Source: an uncultured Actinomycetes bacterium
GTDB taxonomy: Bacteria > Actinomycetota > Thermoleophilia > Solirubrobacterales > Solirubrobacteraceae
Length of the DNA stretch: 21,195 nucleotides
Reading direction: 5' to 3'
Assembly: GCA_937888775.1 (NCBI GenBank)
Contig: CALAQT010000315.1
Location: 1-21,195 of the forward strand
Of the stretch, positions 8,351-10,000 are shown one piece after another. Within the stretch, counting starts at the first letter, position 1; the number at the start of each line of letters is the position of its first letter. The position numbers and the translations under genes are program-made. The notes under the pieces were generated by a model that saw only the letters and a program-made list of their open reading frames with translations, was not told the DNA's origin and ran no database searches.

Positions 8351-10000
8351 CTAGACCGGCGAGGACGGCCGCGCCAGACCTTCGGCCAGGTCGCCGAAGC
8401 CGGGGGCGATCACGGCACCGGGTTGGGCGATCAGCTCCTCGGCGACGAGGGCCTCGGTCGTGAGCATCAGGGCGGCGACCGACGCGGCGTGCTGGATGGT
8501 CAGGCGCACGACCCGCAGGGGGTCGATCACGCCGTCCTCGAACATGTCACCGAACTCGCCGGTGAGCGCGTTGAGGCCGTGTCCGGGGGGCATCTCGCGA
8601 ACCCGGTCGACCACCTCCTGCCCGTCGTAGCCGGCATTCGCCGCCACCCAGAACAGAGGCTCTGAGAGCACGTCGCGGATCACCTCCGCGCCGCGCAGGT
8701 AGTCGCCCTCGAGTCCGGTGTCCTCGAGCACCGACTCGGCGCGCAGCAGGGCCGTGCCGCCGCCGGCGACGATGCCCTCGCTGACGGCCGCGCGCGTGGC
8801 GGCCAGCGCTCCCTCGGTGCGGCGGAACTTCTCCTTGAGCTCGGGGCCGGTGGCGCCGCCGACGTGGATCACCGCGAGGCTGCTGGACAGCCGGGCCAGG
8901 CGCTCGCGCAGGACCTCGATGTCGGTGTCCTGGGTGGCGCGCTCGAGCTCGATCCGGATCTGGCCCAGACGCGCCTTCACCTGCTCCGCGGTTCCCGCGC
9001 CCTCCACGAGCACGGTCGCGTCGTTGGTGATCACGACCCGGCGAGCGCTGCCGAACGTCTCCGGCTTGACGTGCTGGAGGGTCAGGCCCGCCTCCTCGGC
9101 GATCACCTGGCCGCCGGTGAACGCGGCCAGGTCATGCAGGTGGGCGATCCTGCGGTGGCCGAAGCCGGGGGCGCGGACCACGACTGCCCTCAGCGTGCCG
9201 TGCTGGTTGTTCTGCACCAGCAGCCCGAGCGCCGCGCCGTCGACCTTCTCGGCGAAGATGATCAGCGGCCGCGGTGACTTCATCACCGCGTCGAGCATGG
9301 GCATCAGATCCTGCATATGCGAGATCGACTTGTTGGTCAGCAGGATGTAGGGGTCGTCGAAGACCGACTCCATCCGCTGAGTGTCCTGGATCAGATAGGG
9401 CGAGAAGTGGCCGTTCTCGACATGCATGCCCTCCACGAACTCGACCTGGATCCCGGGCAGGACGGACTCTTCGATCGTCACCACCCCCTCGGGACCGACG
9501 CGGTCCAGCGCGCGGGCGACCGCGTCCCCGATCCGCTCGTCCTCCTTTGCCGCGATCGTGGCCACGTGGGCCAGGTCCTCGGCGCCGGTGACCTGCTGCG
9601 CGCAGCGGCACAGCTCGGCCACGACGAGCTCGGTCGCGTCCTCGATGCCGCGGCGAAGCAGCATCGGGTTGGCCCCATCCTCGAGCGCCCTCATGCCCTC
9701 ACGGATGATCGCCTGGGCCAGCAGCGTTGCGGTGGTCGTCCCGTCGCCGGTCAGGTCGCTGGTCTTGGTGGCGACCTCGCGCACCAGCTGCGCGCCCATG
9801 TTCTTGAACTGATTGGAGAGCTCGATCTCGCGCGCGATTGAGACGCCGTCGTTGGTGATCGTCGGCGCCCCGGTCAGCCGCTCGAGCACGACGTTGCGAC
9901 CCTTGGGCCCGAGCGTCACCTTGACCGTGTTGGCGAGCTCGTCGACGCCGGCCTGCAGGAGAAGCCGGGCCTGATGGTTGAAGTAGATGAGCTTCCCCAT
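8351..10000 (-). CDS. groEL: GroEL-type chaperonin paralogue dedicated to the monooxygenase cluster
   Basis: The 549-residue group I chaperonin starts at ATG 10000 (AGGAG lies rather far upstream, about 14 bases). Equatorial ATP-site motifs are present: [16 protein letters not shown] (Asp51) and [12 protein letters not shown] (Asp86). Alignment to E. coli GroEL with a constant -1 offset puts Gly397 ([13 protein letters not shown]) at the place of Asp398, the residue needed for ATP hydrolysis, and Gln263 at the place of apical Val264. The C-terminus lacks a GGM tail (ends LARPSSPV). No groES is nearby. In mycobacterial mim and rhodococcal prm clusters a GroEL-like gene ends the operon and MimG helps MimA fold, so the same role is likely here. 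It lies 62 bp after adh. Confidence 0.93.

Follow-up and report, generated by a model that had tools for sequence, protein, structure and literature searches.

The GroEL encoded in the window (the whole stretch of 21,195 nucleotides analyzed here) carries a glycine at the position of the catalytic residue Asp398 of E. coli GroEL, and this glycine is conserved among its close relatives together with the loss of two further partners of the Mg/ATP residue Asp87. The motifs for ATP binding are intact. We propose that in a Solirubrobacterales-centered lineage the switch for ATP hydrolysis has been dismantled and ATP binding retained. The protein would probably be a dedicated chaperonin that binds ATP, hydrolyzes it very slowly and serves the hydroxylase encoded in the same gene cluster as a slow or holding chaperone.

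The window GroEL and its gene cluster

The groEL gene (8351..10000) is located on the minus strand; it starts with an ATG at 10000, with AGGAG upstream, and ends with a stop codon at 8353-8351. A preliminary description of this region had given the correct coordinates, and its orientation is here corrected to the minus strand. The encoded PrmG/MimG-type protein of 549 aa matches Pfam PF00118 (225 bits) and TIGR02348 (645 bits, cut-off 582.1), both above cut-off, and contains the ATP-binding motifs TLGPKG, DGTTT and GGG. AlphaFold2 predicts a full GroEL fold with complete equatorial and apical domains (pLDDT 85.7 with a 107-sequence alignment; an earlier run with 31 close sequences gave 62.8), and comparison of the predicted fold with GroEL chains resulted in TMq values of up to 0.88 among the 50 matches listed. 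Profiles, fold and motifs identify the protein as a group I chaperonin, in which Gly stands in the place of the catalytic Asp398. Its C-terminus has no GGM tail and is of the tail type LAEGM..RPS.

The groEL gene is the last of a cluster with the order prmA-reductase-prmC-prmD-amidohydrolase-DUF59-ADH-groEL, all on the minus strand, in which three neighboring pairs overlap by a few bases. The first gene (15481..17136) encodes a prmA/mimA-type hydroxylase large subunit (Pfam PF02332) that is 79.7% identical to a Rhodococcus JS3073 protein and is the presumed client of the GroEL. It is followed by genes for a reductase (prmB, 14383..15411; Pfam Fer2, FAD_binding_6 and NAD_binding_1), the hydroxylase small subunit (prmC, about 13248..14363, with a putative start codon; Pfam PF02332), the effector protein (prmD/MimD, 12892..13251; NCBIfam NF045941 MimD, 175.3 bits, cut-off 150), an amidohydrolase-like protein (11813..12877; Pfam PF04909), a DUF59-like Fe-S assembly protein (11094..11816; Pfam PF01883) and a zinc alcohol dehydrogenase (ADH, 10063..11097; Pfam PF08240 and PF00107). 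The sequence directly 3' of the groEL stop codon (8275..8353, minus strand) can form one or more strong hairpins (-44.5 kcal/mol, z -3.27, equaled by none of 200 shuffled sequences), which likely mark the end of the operon.

Besides the window, 20 of the 45 further loci scanned, a set that includes several short ones, show all eight genes in the full collinear order. At least one other gene of the prm cluster is present at all 22 genome loci that encode a GroEL of the Gly type; PrmA is encoded at 17 of these, the other five being a short contig or piece. In Rhodococcus, Mycobacterium smegmatis and Gordonia, genes for a metal-dependent hydrolase, a metal-sulfur protein, ADH and GroEL are located downstream of prmABCD (excerpt of PMC4428276). 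Because the window contains the same gene set, its GroEL is, as judged from sequence, a PrmG/MimG-type dedicated chaperonin of a propane/acetone-type soluble diiron monooxygenase.

The window also encodes, some 5 kb away from this cluster, a methylmalonyl-CoA mutase large-subunit-like protein (TIGR00641; 1923-3518, minus strand), possibly involved in propionate or hydroxyisobutyrate metabolism. Among the other loci, that of a Rhodococcus aetherivorans BW2 plasmid (L006, 10001-16935) has an incomplete cluster: the match to PrmA extends only to residue 495 and no match to the reductase, prmC or prmD was found there, while amidohydrolase, DUF59 protein, ADH and GroEL are present.

Glycine at position 398 and the partners of Asp87

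Codon reading and alignment to E. coli K-12 GroEL confirmed the residues named in the preliminary description. Codon 397 (GGA, Gly; 8810..8812) corresponds to Asp398, codon 51 (GAC, Asp; 9848..9850) to Asp52, the other half of the aspartate dyad, codon 86 (GAC, Asp; 9743..9745) to the Mg/ATP residue Asp87, and codon 263 (CAG, Gln; 9212..9214) to the apical residue Val264, all on the minus strand. Misalignment was not seen at the Asp398 column, and the phmmer alignment of the window GroEL to PDB chain 9rwr is ungapped near codon 397. That the other ATP-site motifs are intact, as had also been stated, holds for Asp52, Asp87 and the TLGPKG, DGTTT and GGG motifs, but not for two neighbors of the site: codon 81 (AGC; 9758..9760, minus strand) specifies Ser at E. 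coli Asn82, a residue lost together with Asp398, and codon 150 (9551..9553, minus strand) specifies Ala at Ser151, the third partner of Asp87. In human Hsp60 the catalytic dyad is formed by Asp50 and Asp397 (excerpt of PMC12557358).

Gly at 398 and Gln at 264 were found together in all 120 close homologues listed, which are at least 86% identical to the window protein (each list of homologues holds the best 120 among some 8,000 candidates scored). The list includes P0001, which has the same sequence as the window protein (100% identity), and several homologues that a source names Solirubrobacteraceae. In the class of the Conexibacter genome, which we take to be Thermoleophilia, 23 of 399 genomes had a match at E <= 1e-175; residue 398 is Gly in 22 and Asp in one, the Rhodococcus-like G745. 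The GroELs of the 22 Gly-type genomes are 59-84% identical to that of the window, and the clade has diverged down to 56% pairwise identity, with residue 398 invariant among the 22. This Gly is encoded by GGC (11), GGA (5), GGG (5) and GGT (2) in the 23 Gly sequences including the window, and the use of all four codons under a fixed residue therefore indicates selection for Gly. An alignment of 420 GroELs, 63 from the loci and genomes read here and 357 from databases, shows that Asp398 is lost in 267 proteins (262 Gly, 5 Ser), for 23 of which, the window and the 22 genome loci, linkage was checked, and kept in 153. None of the GroEL alignments includes the broken GroEL of Methylocella tundrae (L008) or the archaeal locus L002.

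On the level of sequence, these results confirm that the trait is genuine and exclude chance or sequencing error at codon 397. A sequencing or alignment artefact, in favor of which nothing was found, has a negligible probability given the ungapped alignment at the site and the presence of Gly in 262 of 420 sequences from several sources. Nor is the gene decaying, in agreement with the preliminary description: the reading frame is intact, full-length matches without stops were obtained in all 22 Gly-type genomes, and pairwise dN/dS values of 0.07-0.29 for six Asp398-less pairs (NG86, rough) indicate purifying selection. The idea that the protein is a relic, decaying since the canonical GroES/GroEL already folds PrmA, could draw on the report that sMMO hydroxylase made in E. 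coli was active when GroES/EL of E. coli was produced alongside it, the mmoG of the plasmid being apparently insufficient (excerpt of PMC9324122). It is very improbable, however, in view of the absence of stops, the low dN/dS values, the occurrence of Gly398 and Ser82 in 141 of 141 proteins of the window-type clade and the place that the gene still holds in the operon.

According to a study of simulations and crystal structures, Asn82 is the partner of Asp87 in the t conformers; in r'' Asp87 moves to Ser151 and Asp398, which makes up the main link of helix M to the equatorial domain (excerpt of PMC3053311). Among the 548 E. coli columns, 82 and 398 are the only ones that are conserved (at least 95%) both in 63 PrmG-type proteins keeping Asp398 and in 90 other GroELs, and that are lost in both Asp398-less clades. 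These 63 proteins were defined by having no GGM tail, and their linkage to prmA was checked for five (L005, L006, L031, L032 and L083). Asn82 is missing from 266 of the 267 proteins without Asp398, and 152 of the 153 others retain it. All three partners, Asn82, Ser151 and Asp398, are lost in 264 of the 267 and two in the remaining three; the triple loss was not observed in canonical (0/72), Asp398-keeping PrmG-type (0/63), other actinobacterial (0/7) or proteobacterial (0/11) GroELs, and all 72 canonical GroELs keep all three residues. Asp87 and Asp52 are present in all 420 proteins. The loss of Ser151 is not specific, since 15 of 81 Asp398-keeping prm-linked or PrmG-type proteins have lost it too (5/63 PrmG-type, 10/11 proteobacterial and 0/7 other actinobacterial). 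In sequence terms, the pattern looks like the ordered dismantling of one switch rather than random decay. If Asp398 was lost once, the three changes would represent few events, which may have been kept together by descent as well as by function.

Both Asp398-less clades also have A85 changed to T/V, V396 to T/C, and Arg at column 394. Together with the universal presence of Asp52, these changes are what would be expected if the site had been rewired for near-normal hydrolysis, with the water positioned by Asp52 alone or by new side chains (Ser82, Thr/Val85, Thr396, Arg394) and with the co-changes as compensation. Another residue could indeed supply the base, as Asp52 is still present. We nevertheless regard a rewired site as unlikely. 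No new acidic residue was found in helix M (columns 384-411) among the three commonest residues per column of the Asp398-less proteins, Asn82 and Ser151 were replaced by smaller residues, the conserved residue is Gly and not another functional one, and the E. coli single mutant keeps Asp52 yet has only 2-3% activity according to the excerpts cited below.

Most proteins of the PrmG family have lost the tense-state salt bridges D83-K327 and R197-E386 (K327 is Glu in 48 of the 63 Asp398-keeping proteins), a sequence pattern that suggests altered allostery independent of Asp398.

The preliminary description had presented the loss of Asp398 as a feature of monooxygenase-linked GroELs. As a general property of these proteins it was rejected, because Asp398 is kept in all 23 other readable prmA-linked GroELs, i.e. 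5 Rhodococcus-like, 7 other actinobacterial and 11 proteobacterial ones, the latter from Pseudomonadota plasmids (the broken Methylocella copy in L008 is not part of this count). Twelve prmA loci with no GroEL in the stretch read, many of which are short, were not counted either (L009, L010, L033, L037, L038, L041, L042, L044, L045, L047, L028 and L048); L009, L010, L028 and L048 encode more distant PrmA relatives (37-46%). Asp398 is also kept in 16 of 16 full-length canonical GroELs from PrmG-bearing genomes. Judged from this distribution, the loss of Asp398 belongs to a Solirubrobacterales-centered lineage. A search of the phylum with the exact DNA pattern for Gly398 matched 8 of 396 genomes, and only the Conexibacter prm locus was hit inside a GroEL; because an exact DNA pattern is insensitive (the equivalent Asp pattern caught just 22 of 60 genomes), this is weak evidence for the absence of Gly398 elsewhere.

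Phylogenetically, the Asp398-less proteins form two clades, clade A with the window (141 proteins, all with Gly398 and Ser82) and clade B (126). The window GroEL and the Rhodococcus-type PrmG fall into one clade apart from canonical GroEL (SH-aLRT 99; 100/100 in a careful tree based on 70 of the 420 rows, none proteobacterial). The careful tree contains two changes at position 398: its starred branches force two, and 0 of 200 bootstrap trees show one. A single origin of the loss was not rejected by the AU test (p 0.169), and two quick trees do not force two changes; one quick tree was made without Ponticoccus L007 and Paracoccus L055.

The seven other actinobacterial prmA-linked GroELs (L034, L035, L036, L039, L040, L043 and L046) group with canonical GroEL (SH-aLRT 98), and the tree therefore suggests that prmA clusters acquired a GroEL repeatedly, through a second recruitment. 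One genome (G131) has two prmA loci, L043 and L046, and at each of them a separate groEL is encoded on the opposite strand. The prmA-linked GroEL on plasmid 2 of Methylocella tundrae (L008, 14512-16154) matches in two pieces (window residues 1-81 and 137-522) at which no gene is annotated, and is probably broken or misread. In six Pseudomonadota loci (L007, L053-L055, L057 and L059) the apical domain of the prm-linked GroEL is strongly changed, with Asp234 in 5/6, Arg237 in 6/6 and a two-residue deletion at 270-271 in 6/6, and all 11 proteobacterial prm-linked GroELs have Leu at Arg395.

Rings, lid and proposed function

The contacts between the two rings of GroEL are A109-A109, V464-V464 and R452-E461 (excerpt of PMC3326522), and the single-ring mutant SR-1 is changed at R452, E461, S463 and V464 (figure legend in PMC3813556). 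At these columns the window protein has D109 (codon 108, 9677..9679), F452, D461, Q463 and E464; the last four, encoded as F450, D459, Q461 and E462 within codons 450-462 (8615..8653, both stretches on the minus strand), are the four SR-1 positions. Among 71 canonical GroELs, A109, E461 and V464 are present in all and S463 in 70. A change of R452 was dropped as a sign of single rings, since canonical GroELs have R (35), Y (33) or F (3) there. With like charges opposed at 109 and at 464, the pairing of rings would be expected to be weaker. A109 is kept in 75 of 267 Asp398-less and in 16 of 63 Asp398-keeping PrmG-type proteins, and both groups mostly differ from canonical GroEL at the contacts. 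Because the Asp398-keeping relatives share them, the changed ring-ring contacts appear to be a family-wide trait of PrmG; as a sign of a single ring they are only suggestive.

The changed contacts could also mean that the protein is an ATP-binding, non-cycling subunit, which mixes into rings with canonical GroEL or scaffolds PrmA as a monomer or small oligomer. The missing GGM tail, the canonical GroEL encoded in the genomes of relatives, and the changes of A109, E461, S463, V464, R197-E386 and D83-K327 in most family members would all speak for this. We consider it quite unlikely, since relatives with Asp398 show these contact changes as well, so that the changes are not tied to a loss of cycling, and since the equatorial and apical domains are complete in a fold predicted to be that of full GroEL.

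Profile searches of the window and of the Gly-type loci read gave no match to Cpn10. The 45 prm loci scanned contained a single match (L040, 9342-9626), directly upstream of a groEL of the other actinobacterial type, and GroES matches on the same contig in relatives are more than 500 kb away. In the genomes of 23 relatives, at least one Cpn10 was found in 22 and an adjacent groES-groEL pair in 21 (16 with a full-length and 5 with a partial groEL). Of 91 genomes in the order, 49 encode a second, divergent Cpn10 (55-69 bits): all 4 that have PrmG and 45 of the 87 that lack it. It is commoner in PrmG-bearing genomes (20/23 versus 45/87; Fisher p 0.002, for sets that differ in draw and with kinship and genome completeness uncontrolled). 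As a dedicated partner it was rejected for lack of specificity, given its presence in 45 of 87 genomes that have no PrmG. The divergent Cpn10s (L126, L131-L134 and G001:C3:74663-74938), with the motif DWW in the five read, are located away from both groELs. The second Cpn10 may still be a partner of the PrmG-type GroEL, and its enrichment therefore slightly lowered the probability that we assign to functioning without GroES.

With respect to the hydrophobic groove, the mean number of hydrophobic residues at eight positions (Y199, Y203, F204, L234, L237, L259, V263 and V264) is 6.51 in Asp398-less, 6.89 in Asp398-keeping PrmG-type, 7.29 in other actinobacterial prm-linked, 4.64 in proteobacterial and 8.00 in canonical GroELs. 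Apart from position 264, which is Q or T in 241 of 267 Asp398-less proteins, the groove is mostly kept. The change of Val264, by this comparison, is not tied to the catalytic loss, because Asp398-keeping relatives have changed as well (V in 0 of 63 PrmG-type proteins).

Taking ring and lid together, the protein might be a natural group I chaperonin that is both hydrolysis-defective (D398) and single-ring (SR-1 site), a GroES-free holding ring for one client, in which ATP binding times the release of the diiron hydroxylase during iron loading. We consider this reading fairly unlikely; if true, the textbook ATPase cycle would have been switched off by evolution in a working GroEL.

The function that we regard as probable is that of a dedicated chaperonin with very slow ATP hydrolysis. 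Asp87, which holds Mg-ATP, is without its tense-state partner Asn82 and without its relaxed-state partners Ser151 and Asp398. ATP would still bind and tilt the ring, helix M would no longer latch onto the gamma-phosphate, and hydrolysis would proceed at roughly 2-5% of the normal rate, resulting in slow release of the bound polypeptide. Such a slow timer or holding chaperone could keep PrmA, and probably PrmC with it, in solution while the hydroxylase is loaded with iron and assembled, with general folding presumably left to a canonical GroES/GroEL pair elsewhere in the genome, of the kind seen in relatives.

Very slow hydrolysis and slow release are expected because of the data on the E. coli D398A mutant and because no new acidic residue was found in helix M. 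D398A binds ATP normally, has 2-3% of the ATPase activity and still encapsulates and folds protein (excerpts of PMC3326522 and PMC3813556). Its apical opening phase drops from 2.1 to 0.019 per second, and D398A and SR-1 release unfolded protein 4-15 fold more slowly (both from the excerpt of PMC3813556). By analogy with this mutant, the slow-cycling or holding role suggested in the preliminary description is supported, as the most likely consequence of the loss. Low ATPase activity alone does not make a holdase, as E. coli D398A still folds substrates, and slow hydrolysis is not required for the task, because Asp398-keeping relatives serve the same gene cluster. Slow cycling would suit a chaperone dedicated to one large metalloenzyme: formation of active enzyme from mimABCD reportedly required mimG of M. 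goodii (excerpt of PMC7570240, citing Furuya 2013), and the proteome of 2-HIBA-grown Actinomycetospora contained 4.0% MimG, 1.8% MimA and 3.8% MimC (excerpt of PMC7176365), an abundance of MimG that would suit holding. The MimGs tested or quantified in print come from other actinobacteria, and extending these results to the window protein assumes likeness at residue 398.

Significance and comparison with known systems

A description of Asp398 loss in a monooxygenase chaperonin was not found in the literature searched, subscription journals lying largely outside it. The lineage constitutes a natural experiment, in which close relatives with and without Asp398, Asn82 and Ser151 are attached to the same enzyme. 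If a slow ATPase is confirmed, selection can keep a GroEL without the fast hydrolysis step thought to be central. For the production of diiron monooxygenases in other hosts, the practical hint is to supply the matching chaperonin, and hydrolysis-defective ones would be worth testing. The annotation "chaperonin GroEL" hides the changed active site, as TIGR02348 accepts the window protein.

The closest known proteins are MimG/PrmG of the actinobacterial mimABCD/prmABCD systems, which share cluster, tail type (LAEGM..RPS) and clade with the window protein. The Rhodococcus-type PrmGs compared (L005, L006, L032 and L083) keep Asp398 and Asn82, whereas Gly and Ser occupy these columns in the window lineage; the published MimGs of M. 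goodii and M. smegmatis are outside this comparison. MmoG of sMMO operons and the SmoABCD-linked GroEL are described as GroEL-like proteins encoded, as in the window, beside a diiron monooxygenase (excerpts of PMC9324122 and PMC11057499). The sMMO operon is without a standard groES, and how MmoG works without a lid is stated to be open (excerpt of PMC9324122). The chaperonin gp146 of phage EL is a GroEL relative that is reported not to interact with E. coli GroES and whose rings separate with ATP, but unlike the window protein it has retained the catalytic Asp (Asp412) and actively hydrolyzes ATP (excerpt of PMC7185714).

The window protein shares with the laboratory mutants D398A and SR-1 a change at D398 and at each of the four SR-1 positions (R452F, E461D, S463Q and V464E). 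It differs from them in that the change is natural and conserved, is to Gly instead of Ala, and is accompanied by changes of Asn82 and Ser151. BBS6, BBS10 and BBS12 of animals belong to a different chaperonin group. In these chaperonin relatives the ATP-hydrolysis site is altered or lost (excerpt of PMC2846930); the window protein, in contrast, is a bacterial group I chaperonin with intact ATP-binding motifs.
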